From positions 89,732,991 to 89,796,990 of the forward strand of contig CM037595.1 in the NCBI GenBank assembly GCA_021018995.1: 64,000 nucleotides of DNA. Direction: 5' to 3'. Of this stretch, positions 16,193 to 50,359 are shown one piece after another. This DNA is from Chloranthus sessilifolius. Taxonomy: Eukaryota > Streptophyta > Magnoliopsida > Chloranthales > Chloranthaceae. The notes beneath the pieces are model-generated. The model saw only the letters and a program-made list of their open reading frames with translations, was not told where the DNA came from and made no database searches. Every line of letters begins with the position of its first letter. The first letter of the stretch is position 1. A program made the position numbers and the translations under genes.

Positions 16193-16291
16193 GGTAGCTC
16201 CCGGTTACGAGCGACCTGCACTATCGGCTGATCCACGAGTGAGGTTGAGGACGAGGAGACGGACACCCCAGCTGACGACTTTTACCCATAG
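16193..16291 (+). other. Acidic mini-exon in LTR D (frameshifted)
   Basis: Follows the 3' splice-like ACATTTAG. The end of the frame encodes EVEDEETDTPADDFYP then TAG, matching the acidic C-terminus found in LTR families A, B, C and E. Upstream, the frame opened by the conserved phase needs a one-base shift to reach it, so this copy is damaged. Confidence 0.5.
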
Positions 16292-22057: not shown

Positions 22058-22450
22058 ATCGATTAATCGATTTTGGTCTAGAAGTTGAAAAAGCAAGGAT
22101 GCCCAATTTCGATTAATCGATCTGGAAATCGATTAATCGATTTTGAAATTCGATTAATCGATTTGGAAATCGACTAATCGACTGGGTACCTCTAGTGGCT
22201 GGAGAGAAAAGACTTGGGAAAATCGACTAATCGATTTGGGAAATCGATTAATCAATTTTTGATTTCGATTAATCGATTTGGGATCGACTAATAGATTTCA
22301 GACTTTCGACTACTCGATTTGAGAATCGACTTTTCCATTTTGGGGATTTCGATTAATCGATTTGGGATCGATTAATCGATTTTAGATTTTGATTAATCGA
22401 TTTTGGGAATCGATTAATCGATTTTGGGAATTGATTAATCGATTTTGGCA
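22058..22450. repeat. Array of TCGA-N4-TCGA palindromes in LTR A
   Basis: About eighteen sites of the form TCGATTAATCGA, with variants TCGACTAATCGA and TCGACTACTCGA, separated mostly by TTTTGG or TTTGG. The same array is in the 3' LTR at about 44278-44690, and the same motif is arrayed upstream of the extra ORF at 41196-41690. Confidence 0.95.
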
Positions 22451-23545: not shown

Positions 23546-23649
23546 GTCCAGTATTAGCAGCGACCGAGGCTTCGAGAGACGTTGATCTGGGTGATTCGGA
23601 TTACGTGCTTGGGGACGAGTTGGATCCCCCTCCTGAGGACTTCTTCTAG
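23546..23649 (+). CDS. Acidic mini-exon in LTR A
   Basis: Starts after the acceptor-like GTCGCAG with GT and then in-frame codons, encoding PVLAATEASRDVDLGDSDYV, then an acidic Pro-rich tail (LDPPPEDFF) and TAG at 23647-23649. The same phase, the (S/P)DYV-type motif and the acidic end occur in families B, C and E. The 3' LTR copy at 45788 has one internal TAG. No start codon lies inside, so it would need splicing to an upstream exon. Function unknown. Confidence 0.45.
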
Positions 23650-23872
23650 GAGACCCTGCTGAGCACTTTGATAGAGTGAGTTTTGAGAGCTTGTTGTGTG
23701 GCTTGGTATGTCAAGCCTTATTTTTTGGGAAATGTAATTAAATTGATATAATTCTTTTGGTGAACCATCTGGGGTGATCTGTTTATCACTGATGGTTTGA
23801 ATCAGTTCTCTTTTCGTGCAATGGCATGAAAGTAAAACTGTCTTTTGAGTTTACACTTAGAATAGAAAGTAA

Positions 23873-24167
23873 AATTGAGAGCCCTGCTATTACTACTGAA
23901 GCTATGGTTACACAGGGGTTCTCACGAGTAGCTTCTTTCACATCTGGTGAGACTTGTGCCAAGTGTGGCAAGTCTCACAAGACAACGGATTGTAGGATGG
24001 GTACTCGGGATTGTTTTTGATGCGGCAAGGTGGGCCACTTGATCAAAGATTGCCCCGACGTGAACAAAGGGAAGACGGCTTCAGCTCCTATACCACGACC
24101 GATACAAGCAAGGAAGTTGATCGTCTAAGGGAGAGCCTACGCAGTCACAACTCAGGAGGCTTAAAAT
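23873..24167 (+). pseudogene. Element A gag C-terminus (zinc knuckles)
   Basis: Contains two nucleic-acid-binding zinc knuckles, CAKCGKSHKTTDC and a second ending CGKVGHLIKDC whose first part carries a TGA in place of CGA. It then reads GRAYAVTTQEA and stops. In family B the same stretch continues to the gag-protease intron. Here the sequence jumps from LTR directly into gag at 23873 and from gag into an LTR fragment at 24168, so most of gag has been deleted. Non-functional. Confidence 0.8.
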
Positions 24168-24712
24168 TTGAGCGTTAAGTAGTGACCTCGGGATCTGTGC
24201 CTGACTGGTCGTAGGTTTGACCAAGTGATGGTCAAACAAGGGGGACTCATGAAGGGATAAACTGATGTGATGTCAATGTGACCTAAGTGTAGTATATAGT
24301 GTGAGTTAGTGGTCATGTACACTTATATCTGGTGTATGTGTTTAACACACAAGCTGGAAAGCGGATAAAAGGATTTTAATAAACCTAGGTTGCTTTTATT
24401 TGGTTGGTGAAAGAGAGTTTTTAAGAGAGAGAGAGAGGGAGAAACCAAGATGAGTTATTGAGCTAGGAGTTAATGCAAATCAAGAGGAGATTAGAGTATT
24501 GAATGCTGGATTCAATGCATGAGGTGCTGTTGAAACGAAAAGCTGGAACCCTAGCCATCAAACCCAACGAATCAATCCTTTAAGGGATTTATTGAGGTGA
24601 GTTTTGTTAGATTTAAATACCTAAAGATTTGATGAATTAAATTCAGTCAAGTATAGTTAAAATGATAGATTAAAGACCTAGAAAAGAAAGAAAATAGAAA
24701 AGAAACTGCATA
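24168..24712 (+). repeat. LTR A start fragment embedded between gag and protease
   Basis: Matches 43694-44228, the beginning of the A LTR from AAAATTTTGAGCGTTAAG on, lacking TGTAATATCCC. It ends within an AGAAAATAGAAAA tract shared with the target. It lies exactly where family B and C elements have the gag-protease intron. No target duplication, which suggests template switching or recombination rather than insertion. Confidence 0.85.
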
Positions 24713-24767: not shown

Positions 24768-25989
24768 GTACATTATAAATCTATAAGAAGGGAAGCGATG
24801 TGACATGTGAAGCTCGAGTGTTGATAGACCCGGGGTCTATCCACTCATTTGTTACCCCTCGCTTCACAAAGAGGATGAAAGTTAACCCAGAGGAGTTAGA
24901 CTTTGTGTTAATCGTGACTATTCCTACTGGGAAATCGGTTGATATCGAAAAGGGTTGCAACTCTGTGATCGTGAGAATCATGGATGGAGACGTCTTTGAA
25001 CTACCGGCGAACCTAATTTTGTTAGACATGCAAGGATTCAACGTGATCCTTGGCATGGATTGGCTGTCAACTCACTGTGCGACGGTAGATTGCAAGAACA
25101 AGGTCGTTATTTTCAGACCCAACACGAGGAGATCATTTCGATTTCGAGGAGAGAGGTCGACGCATATGCCACTTATCTCGGCAGTCAGAGCCGAACGGTT
25201 GATCAGAAAAGGGTGTAGTGAATACTTGGCATTCTTAAAGAAGCATAAAGAAGCGAAGAATGTTATCTCCGAGATAGCCGTGGTGTGAGAATTTGAAGAT
25301 GTATTTTCGGAGGAATTACCCGGATTACCTCCAGAAAGGGAAGTGGAATTCACCATCAATTTAGCACCAGGAACGGAGCCTGTATCTAAAGCACCATATA
25401 GAATGGCTCCTGCTGAGTTGAAGGAATTGAAGGAGCAGCTACAAGAGCTAATTGACAAGGGGTTTGTTAGATCAAGCGTGTCTCCATTGGGAGCACCGGT
25501 CTTGTTTGTAAAGAAAAAGGATGGGTCAATGCGGCTATGCATTGACTATCGGTAATTGAACAAACTCACTATTAAGAATCGATATCCTTTACCTAGGATA
25601 GATGACTTATTTGATCAACTGTAAGGAGTGAGGTACTTTTCCAAGATCGATCTGAGATCTGGATACCATCAGTTGAGAGTCAAGGCAGACGATATTCAGA
25701 AGACTGCATTCAGGACTCGGTACAGATACTATGAATTCTTAGTGATGCCGTTTGGATTGACAAATGCCCTGGCGTCATTCATGGATCTGATGAATAGGGT
25801 GTTTAAACCACACCTAGACTCTTGTGTCGTAGTGTTTATTGACGACATCTTGATCTATTCAAAATCAGAGGAAGAGAATGAGAAGCACTTTAGAATAGCC
25901 CTACAGACTCTACGTGAACACCAATTGTACGCCAAGCTCAGCAAGTGCGAGTTTTGGTTAGAAGAAGTTAGCTTTTTGGGACATGTCGT
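24768..25989 (+). pseudogene. Element A protease and N-terminal RT
   Basis: Begins after an acceptor-like ATTAG at 24767. The protease shows ARVLIDPGSIHSFVTP (active site D-P-G) and VILGMDWLS. RT follows with [55 protein letters not shown] and the catalytic [11 protein letters not shown]. It runs in one frame to FLGHV, where element B is inserted at 25989; the frame resumes at 38747. In-frame stops at about 25286, 25553 and 25621 replace Gln or Trp-type codons. Such an enzyme would copy element RNA into DNA; this copy is dead. Confidence 0.9.
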
Positions 25990-26745
25990 GTAATATCCCT
26001 GATATTTTGACCTATTTTTATTTACCTCGGTAAGCGTGTTCAGGAAATATTGTGGAATATTTTTAGATTTTTGGTGAGCTAAGGATATGATAAGAATAAT
26101 GGCAAAAGGAAATTGTCGGAAGATGTGTGTAAGTCACGTAAGCAATGACTTACACAATAAGGTTGGTGTTTGTGTTTAGCACCGGATAGGTTTTCAACTC
26201 TTGTGGATAAGTTAAAAGTATAAAAATCTAGATATTTTTATTATTAGCTTTTGGTTATAAGAGAGAGTGAAAGAGAAGTTTCACTTCTCTCACTCATTAG
26301 AAATTTAAGCTCTAAGGCTTTGCCTCATTTGATCCTTGATCTAGAGAGTTTGAGAATTCCTCTCCCCATCTCAACCAATAGTTAGCCTTGTATTTGATTT
26401 CGGATCAGTTTGAACTATTGAAAGAGAAGAGAGATGTGGAGAGTGAGCAGCTCTATATAATTTTGTTGTGGCTGAGGCAGTGACAACCTCATTTGAATGA
26501 TGAACTGTTTTGGAGATTTAAGCCGTTGAACTTCGAAGATTGGTTCCGGTGCGTGCTTTGGTATAACGGAGGCAACGGCTTAAACTACAAGAGGTAGGCC
26601 TTTAAACATCCTTTTGTCTTTTGAATTCAATTTATGTTTAGAATGGTGTGTGGTGTTTTATTTTTGGATAAGAAGGCTGTGGTGGAAAAATGAGGAAAAG
26701 AGCCCGGACTTGAAAAAGTTAGCAGCCACAGACCCTGAGAAATTC

Positions 26746-27027
26746 GACTGTCGATTTGAAAATCGACTGTCGAATTTGGAATTCGACCATCGATTTGAAA
26801 ATCGACAGTCGAAATATGTTTTTTTGTGGCTGAAGCCAATTTGTGGAATTCGAGGGTCGATTTCCAATTCGATGGTCGAATTTGGAAATCGATCATCGAA
26901 TTGAAAATCGAGGGTCGATTTTTATATTTTGTGACTGATGAACAGTTTTGAAATTCGACGGTCAAATTTGAAATCGACCATCGAATTTCAAATTCGACCA
27001 ACGAATTTGATTTCGATGGTCAAATTC
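26746..27027. repeat. Array of TCGA-N3-TCGA palindromes in LTR B
   Basis: About ten 13-bp sites of the form WTCGA-NNN-TCGAW (for example TTCGACTGTCGAT, TTCGACCATCGAT, TTCGATGGTCGAA, ATCGAGGGTCGAT). The three central bases vary and the TCGA halves are kept. The same array is in the 3' LTR (about 37117-37412) and sites of the same form precede the extra ORF (33950-34105). Apparent ORFs across it on both strands are artefacts of the repeat. Confidence 0.93.
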
Positions 27028-27911
27028 TGTCCTGTATTTGGCATTCGAAAATTTTCAGATTATTTTTCTCAGCAAGCTTTTGGGTTGAAATTCTTGTTCT
27101 ATATTAACACTGAGAGTGTTAATATATGTAGGTTTTGATTGTTGGAAGTCCTTGGTGAGGACTGCTAGTGCATGGTTTTGAATACTCCTTGTTAAGGTAG
27201 GGGAACCCTATTTGTTATTTGCATCAATTTATAAGCATAAACTGTTCCGACTATTCCTTTTAAGAAGCATTAGTTTTGGAATTCTGTCATACACAGCATA
27301 AATAAAACCTAAAAGATATGATACAAATATGAAAATTTGGAACCTTATTATGACTAAGAACTTTGCAATTTGAACCTCAGAACCTCAGTTAATCTTTGAA
27401 TCAGAACTTCGAATCAGAACTTTGAAAAATCAAAATTATGTTATGAATAATAAGCTTTGATATGTGTTTGCATTTGCATTTGATTTAGGGTTCATAAGTA
27501 CGATGCCCTAGATTCTACCAACCGTGTTGACGGTATTACTTTGGCGCAAGTTTCCCTCATAGCGTAGGGGCTTGTTGCACTTTAGAAATGGGTTCATGAA
27601 TGACGATGGTCAATAGGGTTTTCCCATCGGTCACGTAGTCCGCTCTTATGCTATAGGAAATTTGGGAGATAAAATTAAGTTATAAATTTAAGACAAGAAG
27701 CATGCTAAATCAGAACATTTTGAACACTTTAGATTATATTATCAGTTTTGACTCAAGATTAGAACTGGAGATTTACTTTGAAAAGCATCATTGAAAAACC
27801 ATATTTGATTCGATTCCGTCTTTTGAAAACCTTTACTTATAAAGAAATGCAAATAGATCTGTTTTCTCTATTGAGCTTGGCTGTTAGCTCACCCTCGACT
27901 ATACGTCACAG

Positions 27912-28006
27912 GTATTGAGACTGACCTTGGGTCAGAGGATCCGCAGGACTCCGATTATATTCTCGAGGAGGATTTGGATATACCAGCTGAGGAGTTCTTT
28001 CCGTGA
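27912..28006 (+). CDS. Acidic mini-exon in LTR B (5' LTR)
   Basis: After acceptor CGTCACAG at 27911, GT then codons encoding IETDLGSEDPQDSDYILEED, continuing to an acidic end IPAEEFFP and TGA at 28004-28006. The 3' LTR copy (38298-38392) keeps the frame with a few substitutions, one of them Gln to Glu. Phase and the DSDY...PAEEFF pattern match families A, C and E. The upstream exon that would supply a start codon is not established; the obvious exon 1 frame that fits the phase has a stop. Confidence 0.45.
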
Positions 28007-28357
28007 TCTTAGATCCTGTGTTTTCTTTTTGGTATGTTTGTCTGGATATTATTTTGGAATATTGGGCCCTAGGCCTTTATTTTGGTTTTTTTGATATCAC
28101 TCGAGGAACCATTATTGTGAACCACTATTTTAGGTGATCGGATTGGTCATCACCGGTGGTTCTTCTTGGTTCCTCACAGTGATATATTCATTTTGTTATA
28201 TGAAGCTTTTATTTTTGGATTACTATATGTTGCCTCTGTCTTTAGATCTTTGTTTATGTTGCCGGCTTCTGTTTGTTACGGCTTATTGAGAAATCAATAA
28301 GTTGATGAACCAGCCTTTCCTATACCTTAGGGATTGGAAAAGTCGGGTCGTCACAGT

Positions 28358-28369
28358 TGGTATCAGAGC
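28358..28369 (+). promoter_or_regulatory. Primer-binding site of element B
   Basis: TGGTATCAGAGC, complementary to the 3' end of initiator tRNA-Met, starts two bases after the 5' LTR. This is where minus-strand DNA synthesis starts in gypsy elements. Confidence 0.95.
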
Positions 28370-28470
28370 AAGGCTCTAGATTCAGAGTCTTAGGACTAGG
28401 GGTTAGATTATTTCTAACAATTCATTACTGATCTATGGTTATTGTTTTTATTTAGCAATGACAGATCAGC

Positions 28471-33370: not shown

Positions 33371-34377
33371 ATTTTGAGAAATTATGTGTTCAATGTATGA
33401 TCCCTTGAATTTTGATGTAATTACTGATTTTATACAAATAATTTGGCGAGTAATTTTTGGCGGTCCAATATACAAATTAATTTGTGCATATTTAAAGGTC
33501 TCTACATTATGGAAAATTCAATAATTTTGGGCCTAAACCTGGTATGTTCCACACTACTGGCCATGTGAAATAAAATTGGACCTATAGTTAGCTACTTCCT
33601 TAAATTTCACTGAGCCATTTGGCCTTGATACTGATGTCATGGCCCTATATATATATTATTTTGTACATACTTAACAGTTTTTGTTTTTATGTTGCGTTGT
33701 GGAAATCTTGAAAATTTTGCGAGCCCGACCAGACCCGGACTTGTTATTTTTCGAATGACTATATGAAGTAGTTTGGCCAAAATTGCTTAGCCTGTTCTTT
33801 AACTTTTCTACACAAATTTCGGCTGTGATATTGCGGTCATGGTCAGATAAGGTGATGGGAATGAAATGGGATCAAAGAAGGTCCATTTAGACCCAATGGT
33901 ATGGTTTGAATTCCAAAAATTTTGAAAAATTTTAAAGGCCACAGTATGACAAAATTCGACTGTCGAAAATGAAATTCGATGGTCGAATTTTTATAAAAGG
34001 TCACAAGCAATTTTCAGCCAAAACAGGACCTGAGGTGTTTCTGAGAAAATCGACTGTCGATTTTCAAATCGACCATCGAATTTGAAATCGATGGTCGAAT
34101 TTCTCGATTTAAGTGTGGGCTTTTAATTTCTTTTGTCATTTCGGGTTCCAACTTAGAGGGTTGAGCTTAGGGTTTTGGGGGTTTTTGGCGATTTTAGGGT
34201 TTTTCATCAATGATGACCGAAATCTAAGGGTGTTTCACTTGGATTGCACAAAGACCTTTGGTTTTCAATCATTGGAAAACCCGATTTGGGGCTCTTCACA
34301 AGGTAACCCTTGATCCATTTCTCTTGAGCAGTTCTGTTTTTCTTGTCTTCTGTGGAGATTTTTTTTATTATTGTAAA
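33371..34377 (+). promoter_or_regulatory. Region upstream of element B extra ORF, with TCGA-N3-TCGA sites
   Basis: Non-coding. From 33950 to 34105 it has five sites of the LTR B palindrome type (TTCGACTGTCGAA, TTCGATGGTCGAA, ATCGACTGTCGAT, ATCGACCATCGAA, ATCGATGGTCGAA) with a TATAAAA motif at 33992-33998. A plant-like leader (TTAGGGTTTTGGGGGTTTTT) and AAGGTAACCCTTGATCC follow; the latter is shared with element A's leader (AAGGTAAACCCTAGATCC). This looks like a separate promoter and 5' UTR. Confidence 0.55.
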
Positions 34378-35736
34378 ATGGGACCTAAGAAACAAGCTCC
34401 AATTCGAAACCCTACCTCTAAGAGGCCTGCTTCCAAAGCGGGTTCCTCAAGCCGATCACCACAATCAGCCCCACAGGCCGACTAGCCTACACATTCGGCT
34501 CCACCACCCCCAAAGCCCATACCACCCTCTATTTCTCCAATGCCTGAACAACCCAATGAATTTTGGAGCATTAAAGGCTTCACCACTGAGTATATTTTTC
34601 ACCCGGAGTTGTTTGATCAGCAAACAACCACTCAATGGGCGGGTGAATACCTCGAAAAAGCCCAGTTGACCTCCCTATGCACCTCATTTAGTGATCACTT
34701 TTATCCCCGTCTCGTGCGCCTGTTTTATCAGCATATGCGCCTCGAGGACGGGAAGAAAATTTACACGGAAATTGATGGCCTAGATTATACATTTGATCTC
34801 GACGACATGGCTGTGGCACTGCACTGCCCTTTAAATCACTCCAAAACCATGGGGTTAGGTCTTCCTTTCCCCAAACCAGTCCGCTTTGAGGACGTGATTG
34901 CCCAAATGACGTAAGGTCGTCATGGGTTCGGTAAATCCATTGTCACGGTCTATATGCCAGAGTCCATGTGGATATTGGACAAAATTTTAAAGGCCACCCT
35001 TTACCCTTTTGGTCATCAGTCTGAGCGCACAGGTCCCCTACAACAAATTTTATTTGTTGCTTATAAGGAGCGCTGGTTTAGTGCTCCTGCAGTCCTTTTA
35101 AAAAGGATTGTAAAGGCACGGGAGAAAATGGGTAAACATGTGAAGAAACCGATGAAGAGTATGCCATATGCTCGATTAATTTCGGTGATGATTGAGAACT
35201 ACCAAGCGGGCCCCGCCTATGACATCCCTCCTACTGAACCCAAATCCACCGCAGGTCGAAAAATGTATAACCTGGTCAATTGGGGTCAAACTTACAGTCT
35301 ACTTGTGAAGACTCCAAAAGATGCAGCGGTACCTGATGCAGCTAGCGATGATGATGAGGACCCTACTCATTCTGCCCCTGACACAGCTGCCCCTGCACCT
35401 CCTCAGCCCCCACAGAGCGACATCCTTACGCTCTCAGAGTTCACCCGACAGATGACCGCCATGAGCCACCAGATTCAGGAGCTCACCCAGCATACCAGCT
35501 CTATGCGTCAGGAGTTGAATGTCCATGGCGGCACTCTCTCTTACCTGATGCAGCACGCGTTTCTCGAGGATTACACGACCTATATGGCGGACATACGTGC
35601 TTCAGCATATTGCCCTTCGACATCGGGCGCTGGTACTAGTATGCCTCCTACGGCTGGCGAGGATGCGGGTGACGGTGTTGGTGAGCGCATTGATGATCCG
35701 GATCAGGCGGGTCCCTCTACAGTGGGGGCTTTTTGA
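34378..35736 (+). pseudogene. Element B extra ORF downstream of pol
   Basis: One frame of about 452 codons from ATG at 34378 to TGA at 35734-35736, with two internal stops (TAG 34483, TAA 34912). A basic Pro/Ser-rich start is followed by a folded-looking core (FYPRLVRLFYQHM, YTEIDGLDYTFDLDDMAVAL, PESMWILDKILKATLYP, MPYARLISVMIENY, NLVNWGQTYSLL) and an acidic Pro-rich tail with a possible coiled coil (TRQMTAMSHQIQELTQHTSS). It is homologous over the core to the intact ORF of element A at 41878. The core recalls the 'putative plant transposon protein' domain family. It is not gag, pol or a typical envelope. Function unknown; a DNA-binding or anti-silencing role is a guess from context. Confidence 0.75.
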
Positions 35737-36328
35737 GTATTACGTTGGGGGGGGGTACTGGTTTATTTTGGATGTTATGGGTCTGTATTATTTTTTTTAC
35801 AGCATGGATTATTCAGGACCTGGTGGTCCTTCTTTTGTTATCTTTTATATTTCTGTTTTTGCGATGTGGTTGGATACTATCTCTGTTTGGCTTGTATATA
35901 TCTCTTCTATGGATTTGACATACTTTGTGGGTTTTCATTTCTTCTATATTCTCTATTGTGCTATTTTTTTTATGTTGTGGTTATGTTTATTCTTCTTGTG
36001 TCCTCCCTATGTGGATTAGCTTTTGTTCTGTTGTCATGTACTATCGGTGTGCTTTTGACTCTCTCTATCGTTTTGTTTTCCTTGTTTGTTATGGTGGGTT
36101 TTGATTCTCTATCTGGCTTTCATGCGTCATTGTGCATCGGTCTCCTGGCACGTGACCCTTGGAGTGTGGACGTCCATGTACGGATGTAATTCACTATGGC
36201 CTTTTGATGCCACATGCAGTACATCCATGTTACTACGGATCCCATCCCTTGGCTTGCGTGCCCTGCGGGATCGGCCCATGGTGACCCATGTTTTCTTTTC
36301 GTTTTGTTGTATGGCGACTCTTCCTTCC
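35737..36328 (+). other. T-rich 3' non-coding region of element B
   Basis: Long T-rich stretch giving hydrophobic open frames in several frames at once, therefore not taken as coding. From about 36145 it is similar to element C near 50490-50640 (CACGTGAC, CATGTACGGATG, TTACTACGGATCCC), so this is a conserved non-coding block before the polypurine tract. Confidence 0.6.
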
Positions 36329-36363
36329 ATTTTCGCGGACGAAAATTCCTAAGGAGGGGTGAA
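36329..36363 (+). promoter_or_regulatory. Polypurine tract and TTTTCG hairpin, element B
   Basis: TTTTCGCGGACGAAAA (a 6-bp stem, 4-base loop) then ATTCCTAAGGAGGGGTGAA directly before the 3' LTR. Elements A (43648-43682) and C (50360-50394) have the same arrangement. The purine tract primes plus-strand DNA synthesis. Confidence 0.85.
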
Positions 36364-38741
36364 TGTAATATCCCTGATATTTTGACCTATTTTCATTTAC
36401 CTCGGTAAGCGTGTTCGAGAAATATTGTAGAATATTTTTAGATTTTTGGTGAGCTAAGGATATGATAAGAATAATGGCAAAAGGAAATTGTCGGAAGATG
36501 TGTGTAAGTCACGTAAGCAATGACTTACACAATAACGTTGGTGTTTGTGTTTAGCACCGGATAGGTTTTCAACTCTTGTGGATAAGTTAAAAGTATAAAA
36601 ATCTAGATATTTTTATTACTAGCTTTTGGTTATAAGAGAGAGTGAAAGAGAAGTTTCACTTCTCTCACTCGTTAGAAATTTAAGCTCTAAGGCTTTGCCT
36701 CATTTGATCCTTGATCTAGAGAGTTTGAGAATTCCTCTCCCCATCTCAACCAATAGTTAGCCTTGTATTTGATTTCGGATCAGTTTGAACTATTGAAAGA
36801 GAAGAGAGATGTGGAGAGTGAGCAGTTCTATATAATTTTGTTGTGGCTGAGGCAGTGACAACCTCATTTGAATGATGAACTGTTTTGGAGATTTAAGCCT
36901 TTGAACTTCGAAGATTGGTTCCGGTGCGTGCTTTGGTACAACGGAGGCAACAGCTTAAACTACAAGAGGTAGGCCTTTAAACATCCTTTTGTCTTTTGGA
37001 TTCGATTTATGTTTAGAATGGTGTGTGGTGTTTTATTTTTGGATAAGAAGGCTTTGGTGGAAAAATGAGGAAAAGAGCCCGGACTTGAAAAAGTTAGCAG
37101 CCAGAGACCCTGAGAAATTCGACTGTTGATTTGAAAATCGACTGTCAAATTTGGAATTCGACCATCGATTTGAAAAAGTCAGTCGAAATATGTTTTTTTG
37201 TGCCTGAAGCCAGTTTGTGGAATTCGAGGGTCGATTTCCAATTCGATGGTCGAATTTGGAAATCGACCATCGAATTGAAAATCGAGGGTCGATTTTTATA
37301 TTTTGTGACTGATGAACAGTTTTGAAATTCGATGGTCGAATTTGAAATCGACCATCGAATTTCAAATTCGACCATCGAATTTCAAATTCGACCAACGAAT
37401 TTGAATTCGATGGTTGAATTCTGTCCTGTATTTGGCATTCGAAATTTTTCAGATTATTTTTCTCAGCAAGCTTTTGGGTTGAAATTCTTGTTCTATATTA
37501 ACACTGAGAGTGTTAATATATGTAGGTTTTGATTGTTGGAAGTCCTTGTTGAGGACTGCTAGTGCATGGTTTTGAATACTCCTTGTTAAGGTAGGGGAAC
37601 CCTATTTGTTATTTGCATCAATTTATAAGCATAAATTGTTCCGACTATTCCTTTTAAGAAGCATTAGTTTTGGAATTCACAGCATAAATAAAACCTAAAA
37701 GATATGATACAAATATGAAAATTTGGAACCTTATTATGACTAAGAACTTTGCAATTTGAACCTCAGAACCTCAGTTAATCTTTGAATCAGAACTTCGAAT
37801 CAGAACTTTAAAAAAATCAGAATTATGTTATGAATAATAAGCTTTGATATGTGTTAGCATTTGCATTTGATTTAGGGTTCATAAGTACGATGCCCTAGAT
37901 TCTACCAACTGTGTTGACGGTATTACTTTGGCGCAAGTTTCCCTCATAGCGTAGGGGCTTGTTGCACTTTAGAAACGGGTTCATGAACGACGATGGTCAG
38001 TAGGGTTTTCCCATCGGTCACGTAGTCCGCTCTCATGCTATAGGAAATTTGGGAGATAAAATTAAGTTATAAATTTAAGACAAGAAGCATGCTAAATCAG
38101 AACATTTTGAATACTTTAGATTATATTATCAGTTTTGACTCAGGATTAGAACTGGAGATTTACTTTGAAAAGCATCATTGAAAAACCATATTTGATCCGA
38201 TTCCGTCTTTTGAAAACCTTTACTTATAAAGAAATGCAAATAAATCTGTTTTCTCTATTGAGCTTGGCTGTTAGCATCCCTCGACTATACGTCACAGGTA
38301 CTGAGACTGACCTTGGGTCAGAGGATCCGGAGGAGTCCGATTATATTCTCGAGGAGGATTTGGATATACCAGCTGAGGAGTTCTTTCCGTGATCTTAGAT
38401 CCTGTGTTTTCTTTTTGGTATTTTTGTTTGGATATTATTTTGGAATATTGGGCCCTAGGCCTTAATTTTGGTTCTTTTGATATCACTCGAGGAACCATTA
38501 TTGTGAACCACTATTTTAGGTGATCGGATTGGCCATCACCGGTGGTTCTTCTTGGTTCCTCACAGTGATATATTCATTTTGTTATATGAAGCTTTTATTA
38601 TTGGATTACTATATGTTGCCTCTGTCTTTAGATCTTTGTTTATGTTGCCGGCTTCTGTTTGTTACGGCTTATTGAGAAATCAATAAGTTGATGAACCGGC
38701 CTTTCCTATACCTTAGGGATTAGAAAAGTCGGGTCGTCACA
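36364..38741 (+). repeat. Element B 3' LTR
   Basis: 2,378 bp, TGTAATATCCC to GGGTCGTCACA, nearly identical to 25989-28355. TATAAAA at 36594-36600. Array near 37117-37412. Acceptor at 38297. The acidic exon is open from well upstream here because of a 3-base difference near 38276. Followed by the second TGTCG. Confidence 0.95.
38298..38392 (+). CDS. Acidic mini-exon in LTR B (3' LTR)
   Basis: Second copy of the exon at 27912-28006: after GTCACAG, GT then TETDLGSEDPEESDYILEED and an acidic end PAEEFFP, TGA at 38390-38392. Compared with the 5' LTR copy it differs at few sites and keeps the frame. In a genomic transcript this copy could be reached from upstream donors in the element, including any in the extra-ORF transcript. 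Confidence 0.45.
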
Positions 38742-40938
38742 TGTCGTCTCAAAGCATGGTGTCACTGTAGATCCAGCAAAAATAGAAGCAGTGGTCAATT
38801 GGGAGCAACCAAAGACCGTGACCAACATCTGTAGTTTCCTTGGATTAGCGGGTTACTATCGACATTTTGTTGAGGGGTTTTCAAAGATATCAGGACCTCT
38901 TACGAGGCTTACAAGGAAGGATTCAAGATTCGAATGGAGTGAGGCATGCGAGAAGAGTTTTTAAGAACTCAAGAAGAGACTCACTTCAGCTCCAGTATTA
39001 GCGATTCCTTCAGGCGGTGGAGGGTTCGCAGTATATAGTGATGCTTCATATAATGGTTTGGGCTGCGTGCTTAATCAACACAGAAAGGTTATAGCATATG
39101 GGTCGAGACAGTTGAAAGAGCATGAGAAGAATTATCCGACGCATGACCTGAAATTAGCAGCGGTCATTTTTGTGCTGAATATTTGGAGACATTACTTGTA
39201 TGGTGAGACTTTTGAGATTTTTACCGATCATAAAAGCCTCAGATATCTGTTTACACAGAAAGATCTAAACATGAGGCAGCGCAGATGGATGGAGTTCCTC
39301 AAGGACTATGACTGTTTCATACAGTACCATCCAGTCAAGGCTAATGTAGTGGCCGATGCCTTGAGTCAGAAGGGTTCAACTCAATTGGCTAGTTTGATTT
39401 TGGGTATGCACCGATGAAAGTTGTTTGAAGATCTGGCACTGTATGATGTGAATATTGAGTCGCAAGCCATAGGAGCCTTCTTGGCTAATATATTAGTGAG
39501 ACCGATGATATTTGAGCATATCCACGAGCTACAGATAAAAGACCCGACGCTAACCAAGATTCGTCAAGATGTAACTGAAGGCATTAGATCTGAGTTCTCG
39601 GTCAAGGAGGATGGTTCCTTATTATTCAAGGGTAGTCTCTGCATTCCGGACAATGTCGATCTACGGTGAATAATTCTTGATGAATCTCACAAATCCAACT
39701 ATGCGATTCACCTAGGTAGCACAAAGATGTACTAAGACTTGAAAAAGAATGACTGGTGGAGAGGCTTGAAGCAAGACGTGGCAGAGTACGTGCCACGATG
39801 TTTGACGTGCGAACAAGTGAAGATCGATCATAGACACCCTGCGGGATTATTGCAGCCTCTACCAATACCGCAATGGAAGTGGGAATCGATCTCTTGGACT
39901 TCATCGTTGGGCTATCGCGTACTACAAAGATGTACAATGCCATTTGGGTAGTGGTCGATTGATTGACCAAGTCAACGCACTTCTTGCCTTACAACATGAT
40001 GTACACGACGGGAAGACTTGCAGAGCTATATATGAAAGAGATCGTTCGTTTCCATGAGATTTCGAGTAGCATTATTTCCGACTGTGACCCATTATATACA
40101 TCAAAGTTTTGGAAGAAATTTCAAGAAGGAATGGAAATAAGACTAGATTTCAGTTCAGCATTCCATCTATAAACCGATGGGCAGACGGAGAGGGTCAATC
40201 AGATCATCGAGGACATGCTTAGGGCGTGCATGTTAGAACTGCAAGGATCATGGGATCAACACCTACCGTTGATTGAGTTTGCATACAACAACAGTTTTCA
40301 GACGAGCATTGGGATGGCACCGTATGAAGCTCTTTATGGATGGCGATGTAGATCGCCCATCAATTGGGAAGAAACCGATGAGAAATTTTTTTTGGGACCC
40401 GAAATACTTAAAGATAATGCCACCTATGTTCGTATGAAGGGCAAAACTCAAAGCAGCTCAGAGCAGACAGAAAAGCTATGCTGATATCAAGCGAACGAGT
40501 GTAGACTTTAAGGTGGGTAAACATGTGTTCGTGAAAGTGTCACCTATGAAGGGGGTGATGAGATTTGGAAAGAGAGGGAAGTTGAGTCCCTGCTATCTTG
40601 GACCATTTGAGGTTCTGGGTCGAGTAGGGGAAGTTGCATACCACATTAGATTGCCACCGTTATTTGATCAAGTACACAATGTGTTCCACGTATCTATGCT
40701 TAGGAAGTATCTTAATGGCCCTGATCACGTATTGAGCGGCCAATCATTTGAGATGCATGAGGATATGAGCATGATCGAAGAACCGGCGGAGATTTTGGAT
40801 CGAAAGGAACAAGTGTTGCGGGCAAAAGTGATTCCATTAGTGCTTGTTCGATGGAAGAATCATCCGATCGAAGAAGCTATGTGGGAACGAGAGGCCGACA
40901 TGAAAGAACAGTATCCGGACTTGTTTGCGACAGCTTGA
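38742..40938 (+). pseudogene. Element A pol, second part: RT end, RNase H, integrase
   Basis: Continues the RT interrupted at 25989 ([35 protein letters not shown]). RNase [48 protein letters not shown]. Integrase: CLTC zinc site, SDCDPLYTS, TDGQTERVNQIIE (catalytic Glu kept), NVFHVSMLRKY and a chromodomain-like RWKNHPIEEAMWERE tail ending YPDLFATA. Stops at about 38962, 39415, 39667, 39733 and 40170 and frameshifts near 39895 and 40440 disable it. Most stops look like C-to-T changes in Gln or Arg codons. Confidence 0.92.
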
Positions 40939-41195
40939 GAGTCAAAATTGTATTACCGCAAGTATGTTTGCGGATGTAAACCATGTGTTGTAATTCAATG
41001 TGGACCTTTGATCAATATATTCAGTAGAGAGAATTTTGATCAACACCGTGTTCCTCATTACAGTGTTGAATGCGTAGTTGAGATCCATCGTTGCCACGAA
41101 ATGGCTGTGAAGTCATGCTTCACAAAATCAGTAACCAACTGGTCATATTTTACCAAGAAAACAAAAGAGACATAAAAGTAAGAAAATTGTGAACT
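40939..41195 (+). other. Element A spacer after pol
   Basis: Non-coding sequence between the integrase stop and the palindrome array. A short open frame here has no family features. Confidence 0.5.
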
Positions 41196-41877
41196 TCTGA
41201 TGAAAACTAATTAATTGATTTTCAAATCGATTAATTGATTTGGAAATTCGATTAATTGATTTTTGGTCAACTAATCGACTGGCATACGCTAGTCAGTAAA
41301 GATTGAGTGGAGGTTCAGAAAATTACTTAAGTGTGATTTCGATTAATCGATTTGGGGATCGATTAATCGATTTTGGATTTCGATTAATCGAGATTGGGAT
41401 TCGATTAATCGACTAAAACATGTCAGTGACTTGAGAATTTTAGAAAAATTTAAGGACTTTGCGATTTCGATTAATCGAAGTGAAATTCGATTAATCGATT
41501 TTGGTAAATCGATTAATTGACTGGCACACGCCAGTGAACTGGAAAGCCTAGAAATTTAAGTGACCACGATTTCGATTAATCGATTTTGGAAATCGATTAA
41601 TCGATTTTGGAAATCGATTAATCGATTTTGGAAATCGATTAATCGATTTTGGAAATCGATTAATCGATTTTAGAAATCGATTAATCGAATCAGGCCTGTA
41701 TATATAAAACGAGGGGGATTTCTCCCCATTTGAAAATTTTAGGGTTTTGTGGTTTAGGATTGATTTTAGATCGAAGTCGTTGCCGTTTGAGATCGAATAC
41801 CTAAGGTAAACCCTAGATCCGAGCTTTTTCTTCAATTTGAGCCATTAAACCCTAGTTTTTATTGATTTTTCACCAAT
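41196..41877 (+). promoter_or_regulatory. Palindrome array, TATA box and leader of the element A extra ORF
   Basis: About sixteen TCGATTAATCGA-type sites (41196-41690), the last seven in near-perfect 20-bp periodicity, are followed at once by TATATATAAAA (41699-41709) and a ~170-nt leader with TTTAGGGTTTTG and AAGGTAAACCCTAGATCC. The same palindrome is arrayed in the A LTRs. This has the layout of an internal promoter with operator-like sites dedicated to the downstream ORF. Confidence 0.7.
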
Positions 41878-43320
41878 ATGCCACCTCGAACTCGCTTGAC
41901 CACGAAGCAAGCAGCTTCGAAGCTCCCGGTCTGGTGTAAGAACGCCGCACCACCACCACCAACACCATCGCCCGTAAGAACCCCATCATCGTCGTCATTG
42001 GATACCACATCCGGTTTGACGAGCGCATCTTCGCGCGAGTCTTCACCGACACCGTCACCACCCGTAAACTTGCCCCAATCAAATGAATGGTGGGCGCCAA
42101 AGAGCTTTGAAAATGAATACATTATTGATGAAAATTTGTTTACCGACCCCGACGTCGAAGGCGAGACCAAATGGGCTAGGAACTATTTGGTCAAAGCGGG
42201 CCTCGGCAACCTGTTAAAGCCACTCCATGGATGCTATTGCCGTAGGCTAGTACGGCTATTTTACCAGGGCTTGGAGGAGGGCCCGACCGATGACATAGTT
42301 ACGACCAAGATTGATGGTCGTGACTACACCTTCACCCATTGCCACGTTCACGAAGCCCTCGAGTGTTATTTGGACTTCGTGCCTGAGACCACCCTCTTCC
42401 CACCATTTGCGGAAGAGGTGAGGTTTGAGGAAATTATGACCGAGATGACCAATGGAAAGAAGGGGTCCGGATCGTCAATTCGGAGGGTCGATTTGCCCCA
42501 ATACATGTGGATGCTTGATTTTATAATCAAGTGCAATCTCTACCCGATGCGTCACGATACCGAGAGGGTGGAGTTGGTTCAACAGGCCCTATACGCGGCA
42601 TTCTACGGCCGTTGGTTCGACGCCACCATGATCATTTTGGAGGGGATGAGATATATAAAAGGGAAGTTGATGAAGAGCAATTTGAGGCCTAAGGAGAAGA
42701 TGCCGTACGCTCGCCTCATTTCGAGCATGCTGGAGTGCTATTCTAACTCTCCAGGGTATGCCATCTCGCCTCTTGAGGAAAGGGCTACGGACCGCGTGAA
42801 GCACTACTCCATCGCTTTATGGGGTCGTAGCTATAGGTTGTTGAAGAGGGCCTTACTAATTAATGGGCCAGCAGTAGCACCACCACCAACCCCACCACCA
42901 CAGCAGGACCCTCCAGTAGGGGGAGCACCACTTGTCATTCCACCCGCTGAGGGAGCCCCATCTCAAACCTCAGTGCCAGCTAGGAGGCAGCCCATAGTGC
43001 CGCCTCCTACAACATCCGCTACGCCACCCTCGCAGTCAGCGGCTGCCACACCTACATCATCATACCGTCGCCGGGTAGCTCACCCTGTGCCTACGATCGA
43101 GGACGTGTTGATGGAGGCCAACAACCAGATGATGAACCGGCGGATGGACTTCTTGATGTACCACACCATGCGGTACATCTATCCGTTGGACTATCAGCAG
43201 CGCCTCACGCAGGAGGAGGCGTGGACTACGGGCCGGACCGCTTTTCACTCAGGTGCAGCTTTTCACATGAGTACCTCTCATCGCTGCATCCGCCTCTGCA
43301 CCACCACGCCAGTGAGATGA
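41878..43320 (+). CDS. Element A extra ORF (aORF), intact 480 aa
   Basis: A complete open frame starting MPPRTRLTTKQAASK and ending in TGA, downstream of pol and in the same direction. Layout: basic, Pro/Ser/Thr-rich N-terminus (1-65); globular core (about 70-330) with KWARNYLVKAGLGNLL, CRRLVRLFYQGL, TKIDGRDYTFTHCHVHEALE, LPQYMWMLDFIIKCNLYP, KMPYARLISSMLECY and HYSIALWGRSYRLL; Pro-rich linker (about 345-400); a C-terminal MMNRRMDFLMYHTMRYIYP region. Homologous to the broken ORF of element B. The core recalls a 'putative plant transposon protein' family; no envelope-like transmembrane segment or known catalytic motif is visible. It has its own TATA box and an upstream palindrome array. It remains open although pol in the same element has many stops. 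Role unknown. Confidence 0.8.
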   Translation: MPPRTRLTTKQAASKLPVWCKNAAPPPPTPSPVRTPSSSSLDTTSGLTSASSRESSPTPSPPVNLPQSNEWWAPKSFENEYIIDENLFTDPDVEGETKWARNYLVKAGLGNLLKPLHGCYCRRLVRLFYQGLEEGPTDDIVTTKIDGRDYTFTHCHVHEALECYLDFVPETTLFPPFAEEVRFEEIMTEMTNGKKGSGSSIRRVDLPQYMWMLDFIIKCNLYPMRHDTERVELVQQALYAAFYGRWFDATMIILEGMRYIKGKLMKSNLRPKEKMPYARLISSMLECYSNSPGYAISPLEERATDRVKHYSIALWGRSYRLLKRALLINGPAVAPPPTPPPQQDPPVGGAPLVIPPAEGAPSQTSVPARRQPIVPPPTTSATPPSQSAAATPTSSYRRRVAHPVPTIEDVLMEANNQMMNRRMDFLMYHTMRYIYPLDYQQRLTQEEAWTTGRTAFHSGAAFHMSTSHRCIRLCTTTPVR

Positions 43321-43682: not shown

Positions 43683-46253
43683 TGTAATATCCCAAAATTT
43701 TGAGCGTTAAGCAGTGACCTCGGGATCTGTGCTTGACTGGTCGTAGGTTTGACCAAGTGATGGCCAAACAGGGGGGAGTCATGAAGGGATAAACTGATGT
43801 GAGGTCAATGTGACCTAAGTGTAGTGTATAGTGTGAGTTAGTTGTCATGTACACCTATCTCTGGTGTATGCGTTTAACACACAAGTTGGAAAGAGGATAA
43901 AAGGGTTTAATAAACCTAGGTTGCTTTTATTTGGTTGGTAAAAGAGAGTTAAGAAGAGAGAGAGAGGGAAAAACCAAGATGAGTTATTAAGCTAGGAGTT
44001 AATGCAAATCAAGAGGAGATTAGATGATTGAATGCTGGATTCAACGCATGAGGTGCCGTTGAAGCAAAAAGCTGGAACCCTAGCCATTAAACCCAACGAA
44101 TCAATCCTTTAAGAGATTTATTGAGGTGAGTTTTGTTAGATTTAAATACCTAAAGATTTGATGAATTAAATTTAGTCAAGTATAGTTAAAATGATAGATT
44201 AAAGACCTAGAAAAGAAAGAAAATAGAAAAAGAAAGGGATTTGGGAAGAACAGCTCGAAAAGGGGCTGAGTCTGGCCAAATCGATTAATCGATTTTGAAA
44301 ATTGATTAATCGATTTTGGTCTAGAAGTTGAAAAAACAAGGATGCCCGATTTCGATTAATCGATCTGGAAATCGATTAATCGATTTTGAAATTCGATTAA
44401 TCGATTTGGAAACCGACTAATCGACTGGGTACCTCTAGTGGCTGGAGAGAAAATACTTGGGGAAATCGACTAATCGATTTGGGAAATCGATTAATCGATT
44501 TTGGATTTCGATTAATCGATTAGGGATCGACTAATCGATTTCGGACTTTCGACTACTCGATTTGAGAATCAACTTTACCATTTTGGGGATTTCGATTAAT
44601 TGATTTGGGATCGATTAATCGATTTTGGATTTCGATTAGTCGATTTAGGGTTCGATTAATCGATTTTGGGAATCGATTAATCGATTTTGGCAGTTTCACT
44701 TGAATTTTTAATTGGACCTTGAGGTTCATGGAGGGTCTAGGACCTTCTCTATTGCATCTTTAGTGATATATTGCATTTGTTATAGTGTACCATAGGTGGT
44801 ACGTGTGGGAGCAAGCATAAGGAGCCGCGTGGGACCTTGATGCTTGGACCTTCAGAGACTTGAGGTAGGGAATACCTTGAACATGTACTTTAATTGCAAG
44901 AGCATGTATGTAGTGATATAGAACTCAAATTTGAAAATATTTTAATTGAGTAAATCTTTGTAAAACGGGTGCGTGTGTGACACCAAGAAAGTAAATGAGA
45001 AAGAGACATCCCCAGGGGATGAGAAAGTGATAAAGGCGTCTGTGTGATGCGAGTAACTGAGACCAAGTAATCTAATGAAAATGAGGCATCCCCAGGGGAT
45101 GAGAAAGTGATAAAGGCATCAGTGTGATGTGAGTAATTTAGACATCACAGGGATGTAAGTAAGATCGAATAACTACTGATAAGGCCTAACTGATATAAAG
45201 TAGCACTTTTATATGGTGAATAACTATATGTAAAGCACATGTTATTTTTGTTATTTAAGGTTTGAATAGAATACCCCACTGACGTGGTGGGATACCCACG
45301 ACTGACTCGGCAGGATATCCGTGACCGGTACGACGGGAAATCCGTACACTGGTGCGGAGGTTTATCCGTACACAGTAAGCACATCCCAGGGATATTGAGA
45401 TGAGATTTAACCCCGCCGCCTATTGAGATAGGGGCTTGGGTAGTATTCCCAGGGAATACATGTATCAACTATCCATTTAGACAACGATGGTGGGTATTCC
45501 ATCGGGGCTCTATGGTATATTGCTCGGGGACTACTTAAGTTGAAGATTTAAGTTTTTCGTTAGGCCTAACTAGTGTAATTCTTGAACAGTTGAAAATAAA
45601 TGAAACATGTAAACCACCAGTAAACTTCAAGGCATAATCATCATCTTTTAAACTATTTTACTGCAAATGTATAGATATATCATGCTTAGAATATCATGGA
45701 ATATATGTGAGATTTTGACTTATATGTTCATTGTGTTGTTCCCTATTGAGCTAGGATGTAGCTCACCCTTTAGACTATACGTCGCAGGTCCAGTATTAGC
45801 AGCGGCCAAGGCTTTAGGAGACGTTTAGCCGGGTGATTCGGATTACGTGCCTGGAGACGAGTTGGAGCCCCCTCCTGAGGACTTCTTCTAGGAGACCCTG
45901 CTGAGCACTTTGATAGAGTGAGTTTTGAGAGCTTGCTATGCGGCTTGGTATGTCAAACCTTATTTTTGGGAAATGTAATTAAATTGATATAAATATTTTG
46001 GCGAACCATCTGGGGTGATCTGTTTATCACTGATGGTTCGGATCGGTTCTCTTTTCATGCAGTGGCATGAAAGTAGAACTGTCTTTTGAGTTTACACTTA
46101 GAATAGAAAGTTACTTCCACATCGTATAGTATTTGTTCCATTTTATCTTAATATTACTTGTTATACCAATATTCTGTACATAGTCTTGGGGCACGGCCTA
46201 AAGGATCGTGCTGATGGCACGGGTTTCTGGGTGTCGAAATCTGGGCTGTCACA
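43683..46253 (+). repeat. Element A 3' LTR (complete)
   Basis: 2,571 bp, TGTAATATCCC to TGGGCTGTCACA. Donor TTGAG|GTGAGT at 44126; palindrome array about 44278-44690; CGATGG hairpin about 45483-45503; acceptor GTCGCAG at 45787; the acidic exon has one internal TAG; hairpin GAACCATC...GATGGTTC about 46003-46039. The terminal ~150 bp missing from the 5' copy are present here. Confidence 0.95.
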
Positions 46254-47908: not shown

Positions 47909-48204
47909 TGTGACGACTCGACTTCTCCAGTCCCTCAGGTATAGGAAAGGCCGGTTCGCCAACCTATCGAATAAACGATAAGCCGGACAAACAGGGCACA
48001 TATCAGAGTAAAGCGCAATAAATATCCATAGCTAAAATAAATGCGGAAGCAATTAAAAGTAAAGAACCACCGATGATGGCCGACCATCATCGAAACATGG
48101 CTCATAACAGAAATCAATGTCAAATATAAAACTATGGTATCCAACTAAAATGGGCCCACAAATTCAAGTCTAACTCTCACCACAAATAAGAAAATCAGTA
48201 AGTT

Positions 48205-48305
48205 CTATATTGGGAAAAACTCCTCAGGAGGAACCTCAAGCTCTTCCTCAGGCACGTAGTCAGGATCAGTCTCACAGCCCTGAATAGCCACGTCAATTCC
48301 TGAAC
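48205..48305 (-). CDS. Acidic mini-exon in LTR C
   Basis: After acceptor CGTCACAG, GT then codons for SGIDVAIQGCETDPDYVPEE, continuing LEVPPEEFFPI and TAG (48207-48205). The same phase and acidic pattern as LTR A, B and E, despite low nucleotide similarity elsewhere. The matching part of the other LTR (about 56166-56260) is scrambled by small indels. Function unknown. Confidence 0.5.
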
Positions 48306-49359
48306 CTGTGACGTATAGTCGGAGTGAGCTAACCAACAAAGCTCAGTAGAAGAAAGACATCTACGGCATTTTACTTTAACTAACATGGTTTTAAAATAAA
48401 TATCGGAATATAGCTTGTCAAACATATAAGCAGATAATAAACTGAATATAGGTGCGGAAATCATATGTAAGATTTATTTCTAAATGTGTGAAAACAGTTT
48501 CAAGAACAGATGCAGTGTTTCAGTGTCTTAGTTTCTCTAACTTCTATATGCAAAGTTCAGTAATTCATGACTTAATCCTCAACTTAAAATACCTCCCGAG
48601 TAAACTATATCTCGAGAGCAGGAATATAGCCGATGGGAACCCCTACCTACCATCGTCGTTCATGAACCCATTTTCAGGATGCAACAAGCCCCTGCGTAAT
48701 GAGGGAAACTTGTGCCAGAAAGTTGTTCAGGAATTTTTGAGGGGTTGTTCAGGTCAATCATAAAATAAATGCAGATACTAATATAATCAGATGGAAGTCT
48801 CTTATACATAGTTCAGGTTCTTGATTTCAGATCTTCAGAGCTTAAGCGATCAGTTTCGTGATTCGTGTAGATTTAGATTTTTAGTCATTCATATCAATTT
48901 CAATCTACAGATGTGATTTCAATGGCATATGCAAGTTCAAAGATTTTAATTCAAAATATCCATGCGAATTAAAATAAAATACTGTAAAGATGAGATTCTC
49001 CTACCTAAAACTCGGAGTTATGCGAAGTCAAGCAAGGTCCTATTGATGGCCTCTCGCCCTCAATCTACATCACAATATACGTTCATGCATTAAGATAAAC
49101 TCTAATTACTAATAATATAGACCTATTTAAGCGTTTCCTCAAAAACAAGTCAAAACAGGCAAGTTGCGCCAATCCTAGAATTTGACGTAATATTCTCATA
49201 TTTTTTTGACTATCAAGACGATTGATTCATGTGTTGATCAAAACATGAAAGTTGTAGATTTTTATATTAGCTTTCCAACGCAAAATGAATCGTCTCAATC
49301 GGAGTTCGAGATAAAACGTTATGACTAAAATACTAAGGCAATGCCGGAGTTCGGTGATA

Positions 49360-49812
49360 CCTCGCTCGAGCGATGATAATAGCTCGCTCGAGCGATTTGA
49401 TGTAACATTCTCATATTTTTTTGACCATTAAGACGATTGATGCATGAGTTGGTCAAAACATGAAAGTTGTAGATTTTTCTATTAGCTTTCCAACGCAAAA
49501 AGAATCATCTTAATCAGACTTCGGGATAAAAAGGTATAACTAAACTACTAAGGTAATGTCGGAGTTCGGTGATACCTCGCTCGAGCGATGATAATAGCTC
49601 GCTCGAGCGATTTGACGTAACATTCTTATATTTTTTTAACCATCAAGACGATTGATTCATGAGTTGGTCAAAATATTAAAGTTGTAGCTTTTTCTATTAG
49701 CTTTCCAACGCAAAATGAATCGTCTTAATCAGAGTTCGGAATAAAAAGTTATGACTAAAATACTAAGGCAATGTCGGAGTTCGGTGATACCTTGCTTGAG
49801 CGATGATAAAAA
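49360..49812. repeat. Repeat block with CTCGCTCGAGCGAT palindromes (LTR C)
   Basis: About three units of roughly 205 bp, each with one or two TCGCTCGAGCGA palindromes around a GATAATAG spacer plus a conserved segment (TTGACCATCAAGACGATTGA). The same block is in the 5' LTR at about 57300-57750. Confidence 0.92.
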
Positions 49813-50359
49813 CCGACGGGTTTCCTCAACGATTCGCGCCGCGATCGATCCCACGAGTTCACAGAGACAACTCTAACACGCCACCAATGATCTCAACCTC
49901 TCCCAATAGCCAACTACGAATCCAAGGTTGATTCAAGTTCTTTCTAAGGTTTAAGTGTTTTCAACAAAGAGGGTTCTAGAGAAGGAGGTTTTCTAAACCG
50001 ATCTCCTACGATGATTGAAGAAGAGAGAAGAAGAAGTTTCACACGGTTGGGTAACTATCCTCTCTTAACAAAACCTAGTATAATACGGGAATGCAATTCC
50101 TTCTTATAATAGGATTGCTCACAAAGTAAAACACACACACACATCTTATGTATTATACACTTCTAATTTTAAAACTCAAGTCCGGTGTTGAGCGGCTACA
50201 CCGAGGTCGGTGCACAACTTTCGCACGTGGGTCCAAATGGGCTCTAAATTCATATCTGTCCGGACAATCACATCTAGATAGAAATACGTAACAAATGGTG
50301 ACGCGGTTGCCGGCGAATACACACTCAGTCTAACTCGGGTTCAAAATCGGGTCTTTACA

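Follow-up and report, generated by a model that had tools for sequence, protein, structure and literature searches.

Extra open reading frames and matching palindrome arrays in plant retrotransposons

Reviews and surveys describe the function of the extra open reading frames (ORFs) carried by plant LTR retrotransposons as unknown. In the VANDAL (Mutator-like) transposons of Arabidopsis, the available parts of two accounts describe VANC as an anti-silencing protein that binds a motif and removes methylation (PMC5735166, PMC10398659). Among LTR retrotransposons, the Retand account, in the part available, presents an extra ORF located after pol and predicted there to be DNA-binding, accompanied in that region by family-specific tandem arrays (PMC11963269), an arrangement close to the one described here. 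Retand nevertheless differs in being a non-chromovirus with an antisense TRP28 ORF and another domain, and the same part of that account describes neither palindromes nor any correspondence with arrays in the LTRs. The 3′ ORF of sunflower Athila, which shows similarity to Transposase_32, shares the Pfam family, a similar position and the sense strand with the ORF studied here; however, it lies in an Athila element, no link to palindrome arrays is described for it in the available section, and the extra ORF that this account gives for Tekay is 5′ with an unrelated domain (PMC11728184).

The present analysis concerns a window of 64,000 nt, meaning the whole stretch of DNA analyzed, from Chloranthus sessilifolius (CM037595.1, assembly GCA_021018995.1, positions 89,732,991-89,796,990, forward strand), with wider sampling of loci in the 2.17-Gb genome. 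Two of its elements combine an extra ORF with palindrome arrays that match the arrays of their own LTRs, which suggests the extra protein as a candidate recognizer and regulator of its own element.

Two Tekay-type elements with matching arrays

The label Tekay-type is based on the chromodomain, the LTR start and the assignment made in an earlier, sequence-only reading of this DNA. A chromodomain (Pfam Chromo) is recognized at the integrase end of element A (25.5 bits; cutoff 25.1) and of element C (25.9 bits); it was not found in the piece of element B examined, a region that has one stop and aligns at 81% with C. The end of A's pol (40513-40935, + strand) encodes a Tf2-1-type SH3 and chromodomain, as in chromoviruses. 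The chromodomain, the LTRs of about 2.4 kb beginning with TGTAA and the tRNA-Met type primer site of B all resemble Tekay (Del) chromoviruses, although the available part of the Tekay account mentions no 3′ sense ORF of the Transposase_32 type (PMC6317226).

Both elements carry an ORF after pol, as the sequence-only reading had stated. In the case of A, it is a single open frame of 480 aa (41878-43320, +), whose intactness is not significant evidence of selection since insertion given the age of the LTRs (P about 0.12). The ORF of B, which is nested in A, spans 34378-35736 (+) and has two in-frame stops; its core is homologous to that of A (tblastn, 37% over 324 aa, E 3e-56). Homology between the leaders of the two ORFs is unsupported (score 29 against a shuffle maximum of 33).

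The same reading had claimed that each ORF is preceded by the palindrome type found in its own LTRs, and the counts bear this out. The internal array of A (41339-41688, +) contains 12 exact copies of TCGATTAATCGA (TCGA-N4-TCGA), or 16 sites starting at 41200 when up to 2 mismatches are allowed. Its 5′ LTR copy (21539-23870, +; initial ~80 bp unmatched) holds 11 exact N4 sites at 22059-22421, and its 3′ LTR (43683-46111, +), which begins with TGTAATATCCC after a purine tract, holds 13 at 44281-44684. In B, exact TCGA-N3-TCGA sites number five in the array 5′ of the ORF (33956-34098, +), nine at 26744-26984 in the 5′ LTR (25989-28373, +) and eight at 37158-37378 in the 3′ LTR (36364-38759, +). 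The N3 form is absent from A's three arrays, and the N4 form from B's three. Dinucleotide shuffles of these array stretches (300 per stretch) averaged no more than 0.09 sites and never gave more than 2. The TATA box reported directly after A's array is indeed there (41699-41709, +), 10 bp past the last palindrome; no TATA match was found within 200 bp 3′ of B's last internal site, and a TATAAAA lies at 33992, inside B's internal array.

Arrays in elements without a detected ORF

An unbiased scan of the whole window for perfect 12-bp palindromes found only three that recur at least 4 times: TCGATTAATCGA (n=29, element A), TTGATCGATCAA (n=9, element D) and TCGCTCGAGCGA (n=7, element C). Perfect 12-bp palindromes with two copies within 500 bp numbered 12, and none occurred in 200 of 200 shuffled windows. 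Element C (− strand) has a 5′ LTR at 55882-58312 and a 3′ LTR at 47919-50359, both with 215-bp repeats that contain TCGCTCGAGCGA. The sequence-only reading had given C LTR palindromes and no extra ORF; the present analysis agrees on both points, with the correction that the palindrome is a different one and lies inside these repeats. Element D is a solo LTR (14262-16704, +) flanked on either side by the target duplication TTACG, and its array (15018-15419) comprises 16 TGATCGATCA sites, nine of which are TTGATCGATCAA. This fourth array was absent from the earlier reading. The palindromes of C and D differ from those of A and B, and the offset within the LTR is similar. No extra ORF was found in C or in D. 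A further family, defined by TCGATCGATCGA, has arrays at seven distinct places in the genome, and no ORF relative was found in the stretches covering them, of which four measured 3 kb and three 10 kb. A TCGA core is common to different families.

These arrays, for which no ORF was found, keep alive an explanation in which the palindromes are dimer sites of one or more host transcription factors of a single family, the LTR and the ORF promoter requiring the same activation, and differences between families reflecting the preferences of paralogous host factors or drift. The TCGA core shared across families agrees with it, and the TATA-proximal sites of the ORF promoters resemble ordinary upstream activation sites. 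A single host factor, however, would not predict four LTRs with four different palindromes in one 64-kb window, and we regard this explanation as rather unlikely.

Further loci and covariation with the ORF

Relatives of the extra ORF were present in 17 of 22 stretches around N4-TTAA sites. The pairing of palindrome and ORF is wider than first reported. All additional loci were picked via the N4 pattern and B is the sole N3 case, so these figures give no unbiased rate. Six more Tekay-type loci share the order pol, array, TATA box, ORF, second array, with N4-TTAA in both arrays in 6/6; at each of them, one of the two arrays had played no role in selecting the locus. In a second family, in which no Tekay-type pol was detected, a TCGA-N4-TCGA array precedes the ORF in all seven loci examined. 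A second array of the same type, in an LTR or presumed LTR, accompanies the ORF in eight Tekay-type elements (A, B and the six loci) and in the seven second-family loci. In the ORF tree, a split with support 0.90 sets the N4 Tekay group apart from both B and the second family.

The flanking bases also tend to agree between the arrays of one element. At position −1, A is A-rich (72% and 76% in the LTRs, 58% in the ORF array), and its six Tekay relatives are T-rich (LTR 60-72%, ORF array 55-67%); B is mixed A/T, and the second family has G or G/C. The departure of A from its close relatives in both arrays alike is again something that a single host factor would not predict. The covariation of ORF clade and palindrome proposed in the sequence-only reading gains agreement of both arrays in 15 loci and the split in the tree, but its statistical weight is modest, since B is the only N3 element, the other loci were N4-picked and about four independent families are represented.

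Matching arrays could also arise by concerted evolution without function, in which slippage generates the units and template switching during reverse transcription, or conversion, homogenizes the LTR and internal copies. The palindromic sites do sit in 19-23-bp tandem units, spaced at about 20 bp, with like linkers in A and B; helical phasing of the longer inter-site gaps found no support (R 0.2, 17 gaps). With the sites masked, the inter-site stretches of three of the six Tekay loci were still more alike than most shuffles (fractions 0.000, 0.015 and 0.030), which fits copying between arrays, and Retand, in the available part of its account, too has family-specific tandem repeats between pol and the 3′ LTR (PMC11963269). 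Against such copying, the longer sequences that separate clusters of sites are unrelated in the other three loci, and A's internal and LTR arrays, with sites and 4-bp flanks masked, are no more similar than shuffles (fractions 0.86 and 0.52). Every recurrent array unit in the window is, moreover, a palindrome with a CpG core, and position also argues against a purely passive origin: a TATA box lies 5-65 bp 3′ of the ORF array in 7/8 Tekay ORFs, TATTTAAA lies 35-40 bp 3′ of it in 7/7 second-family loci, and the internal array stands just ahead of the TATA box in 14 of the 15 ORF promoters examined. Concerted evolution alone is in our judgment unlikely.

The extra-ORF protein

The protein of A matches Transposase_32 (PF20167) at 22.2 bits (E 1.4e-4), and its core alone at 24.2, below the gathering cutoff of 45 bits. 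Among eight relatives in the genome, one, L031 of the second family, passes that cutoff (52.8 bits); L025 (36.1), L036 (33.0), L023 (31.8), L030 (18.2) and L024 (15.3 bits) fall below it, and the pieces L027 and L028 gave no match. The protein of A, below the cutoff with a relative above it, is therefore filed as a divergent relative of the family and not as a member. Pfam recognized no known DNA-binding domain in the extra-ORF protein, and AlphaFold2 models were uninformative (pLDDT 33.5 and 35.9). The core of the ORF is under purifying selection (pN 0.39-0.40 vs pS 0.87-0.88) and evolves more rapidly than do RNase H and INT, with dN at 0.55-0.58 vs 0.27-0.28.

An envelope-like or structural role, once proposed for Athila-type ORFs, would make the arrays mere drivers of the ORF's transcription. 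The maximum mean hydropathy (Kyte-Doolittle, 19 residues) is 0.80 in A and 0.81 in the B pieces, below transmembrane strength, and such a role by itself leaves the match to the LTRs unexplained; we consider it very improbable.

Searches of a protein database found no relative with A's ORF as query (7984 candidates, E 1e-3) or with a three-piece alignment (5777 candidates, E 1), and the PDB gave no match by sequence. Searches of viral_contigs with the extra ORF, C's integrase and B's RT gave no relative of any of them, and the N3 pattern had no match there; the single palindrome match (L001) was judged unrelated from its sequence. B's RT retrieved eight retrotransposon pieces in bacterial records of genome_contigs, which we read as plant or fern contamination; neither an ORF relative nor a palindrome array was found in them, and part of an LTR was seen only in L003 (~1.7 kb) and L002 (~0.45 kb).

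Proposed self-regulation and comparison with known systems

We infer from the arrays that the ORF product may be a palindrome binder, and our main reading, to which we assign a probability of roughly 0.45, is that the extra ORF encodes a putative dimeric DNA-binding self-regulator, similar to VANC in its working and not in its sequence. The internal array would then supply the regulatory portion of the ORF promoter, and the LTR array would serve as an internal enhancer or anti-silencing region. The product, as a dimer, would bind the palindromes and activate, or hold unsilenced, its own gene and element. Should the protein's preference for spacing or flank drift, the arrays at both places would follow, and a subfamily-specific site would result. 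The interpretation given in the sequence-only reading is, overall, partly supported.

If the ORF product recognizes its own promoter and LTR array, there would be a testable function for these extra proteins, and the arrays would form a readable code predicting the copies on which a given protein can act. Sequence-specific self-regulation would also have arisen beyond the only group of transposons known to have it, and the elements would be a source of new DNA-binding domains whose sites are short and well defined.

The parallel with VANC drawn in the earlier reading holds in part. As far as the available parts of the VANDAL accounts extend (PMC5735166, PMC10398659), both systems have a fast-evolving, element-encoded extra protein and short motifs in tandem arrays within the element's own non-coding DNA, differing between related families. 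The present elements, in contrast, are LTR retrotransposons and not MULEs, their sites are palindromic and their protein is related to Transposase_32. Kinship finds no support, as Pfam detected neither DUF1985 nor DUF287 in the A protein or the B pieces, so that VANC serves as an analogy of mechanism only. Binding and demethylation are features of VANC; for the present protein both are putative. A wider proposition, which we hold as possible though somewhat doubtful, is that the Transposase_32-related proteins found in plant LTR retrotransposons make up a widespread group of element-encoded, dimeric and sequence-specific regulators, recognizing TCGA-Nx-TCGA palindromes in the LTRs and promoter of their own element; several lineages would then each have a private code of self-recognition, as an LTR-retrotransposon counterpart to VANDAL and VANC.

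Elements and palindrome arrays in the window

The window holds three LTR retrotransposons (A, B and C) and one solo LTR (D). Element A (LTRs 21539-23870 and 43683-46111) hosts element B (LTRs 25989-28373 and 36364-38759), which is nested in its RT region; element C (LTRs 47919-50359 and 55882-58312) lies on the minus strand, and D (14262-16704) has a TTACG target duplication at both sides. A chromodomain follows a Tf2-1-type SH3 domain in both A and C. A third, partial copy of A's LTR start (24163-24705, about 540 bp, 94% to 43695-44235) separates a gag fragment from the protease of A, indicating that the 5' half of A is rearranged.

Exact TCGA-N4-TCGA palindromes, mostly with a TTAA spacer, are found in the 5' LTR of A (11), in the promoter of the extra ORF behind its pol (12) and in the 3' LTR (13), and exact TCGA-N3-TCGA palindromes occupy the corresponding parts of B (9, 5 and 8); the arrays of A contain no N3 and those of B no N4 site. 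The palindromes of C are TCGCTCGAGCGA and those of D are TGATCGATCA, with 16 sites. The sequence-only reading is confirmed in its arrays for A, B and C, and lacked the fourth palindrome type, that of D. Shuffle controls on window stretches do not yield such arrays. The spacing of sites within a cluster is 19-22 bp for A, 19-20 bp for B, 22 bp for C and 19-23 bp for D, and the arrays start at a similar offset in all four LTRs, about 560-760 bp into an LTR of about 2.4 kb, the array ends of C and D having been placed by hand for this comparison. Since TATA-like and splice-donor-like motifs were read by eye upstream of the LTR arrays, these may lie within a leader intron. The CpG observed/expected ratio is 2.0-2.6 in the A and B arrays versus 0.56-0.67 in the remainder of their LTRs, in part because of CpGs within the site itself. 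Not far from position 63671, where an LTR may end, looser inverted repeats cluster at 62439-62600 (YRACT-N-AGTYR, three of the window's eight) and may represent a fifth array type.

Extra ORFs and their matching arrays

The extra ORF of A is an open frame of 480 aa, and that of B carries two stops. Their cores share 41-45% identity, with pS of 0.87-0.88 versus pN of 0.39-0.40, so that synonymous change is saturated and the amino acids are constrained; dN is 0.27-0.28 in the RNase H and INT/chromodomain pieces and 0.12 in an RT piece. The protein of A matches Transposase_32 (Pfam PF20167) weakly, at 22.2 bits, below the cutoff of 45.

A regulator encoded by the element would be expected to have the same sites in LTR and ORF promoter, changing in step in both. 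To judge from sequence, we give an element-encoded self-regulator acting through its own palindromes a probability of roughly 45%. Template switching could also produce matching LTR and ORF arrays, without any function, and seems quite unlikely. When sites plus 4 bp on each side were masked and similarity was scored against shuffles, LTR and internal arrays of A were alike only within the shuffle range (fractions 0.86 and 0.52), those of B gave fractions of 0.057 and 0.307, and three of six further Tekay-type loci had excess likeness (0.030, 0.000, 0.015) and three had none. With the sites alone masked, the arrays of A were still alike (score reached by 0 of 300 shuffles), owing to similar linkers in the 21-bp unit. 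Taken together, the masked arrays indicate that the common part is mainly a unit of site and short flanks, and some longer pieces may have been exchanged.

Relatives in the source genome

Across the genome (2.17 Gb, 32 contigs), TCGA-N4-TCGA-N5-TCGA occurs 1527 + 1470 times versus 501 + 406 for the reversed control. A relative of the extra ORF is present in 17 of 22 roughly 10-kb stretches surrounding TTAA-spacer places (L021-L042, two overlapping), all chosen by the N4-TTAA pattern among the first places listed and all from contig 1; none was found in the other five (L026, L032, L034, L041, L042). These relatives fall into six Tekay-type loci (L021, L022, L025, L030, L036, L037), ten loci of a second family (L023, L024, L027, L028, L031, L033, L035, L038, L039, L040) and one distant case (L029:8600-9500; 23-27% identity, near an N4-TTAA array). 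Ty3-type retrotransposon pieces inside records labelled as bacterial (L002-L009) are probably plant or fern contamination.

All six Tekay-type loci show the order pol, N4 array, ORF and a second N4 array at the expected LTR position, the LTR being presumed from that position. The second array had led to the selection of five of these loci and the ORF array to that of L021; in 6/6, the array that had no role in this selection is N4-TTAA (9-20 sites, no N3). TATATA lies 5-65 bp downstream of the ORF array in seven of the eight Tekay ORFs examined (the six loci and A), with none in B; palindromes two turns apart before a TATA box look like activator dimer sites.

The second family has a gag-like frame with a zinc knuckle, and Tekay pol pieces had no match in the nine stretches examined; it is possibly non-autonomous. 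One copy (L031) has an ORF above the Transposase_32 cutoff, at 52.8 bits, and kinship to Athila is a guess from this domain. The ORF is preceded by 12-19 TCGA-N4-TCGA sites with a TTAA or TGCA spacer (seven of ten loci examined), and TATTTAAA lies 35-40 bp past the last site of the ORF array in 7/7 loci examined. The end arrays, with only 3-4 sites each within the measured cluster, are presumed to be LTRs because some loci show them repeated at a distance of about 8 kb. In L023, L024, L027, L028, L031, L038 and L040, arrays stand before the gag-like frame and both before and after the Transposase_32-type ORF.

Covariation and the host-factor alternative

The proposal that ORF clade tracks palindrome type has partial support: flanks agree within elements and the tree sets the N4 Tekay ORFs apart, but only about four families provide independent contrasts, a single one being N3. 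At flank position -1, LTR and ORF arrays alike are A-rich in A and T-rich in the six Tekay-type relatives; both array kinds are mixed in B and show G or G/C in the second family. Among 11 ORF cores, seven N4 Tekay ORFs separate from B, the second family and L029 with support of 0.904, in a tree whose rows were query-anchored on A, a bias favouring A.

Binding of the arrays by a host transcription factor is somewhat unlikely, yet it would account more simply for arrays in elements where no extra ORF was found, namely C, D and the TCGATCGATCGA family (L012-L016, L018-L020). No ORF relative was found at seven distinct places of this family, four of the stretches being only 3 kb long. Gag-like matches lie downstream in L012-L014, and L019 has a chromodomain integrase.

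Comparison with known systems

We found no description of palindrome arrays matched between LTR and extra ORF in the titles and abstract openings of the open-access papers listed by our literature searches. Extra ORFs are common in Ty3/gypsy elements, their function being open (PMC6317226, PMC7264820); in sunflower, Tekay extra ORFs lie 5', and Transposase_32 similarity occurs in an Athila element (PMC11728184). Retand elements combine tandem repeats with TRP28 ORFs, supposed DNA binders (PMC11963269). The VANC anti-silencing proteins of Arabidopsis VANDAL transposons bind tandem-repeat motifs that differ among related VANDALs, and the proteins contain DUF1985 and DUF287 (PMC5735166).
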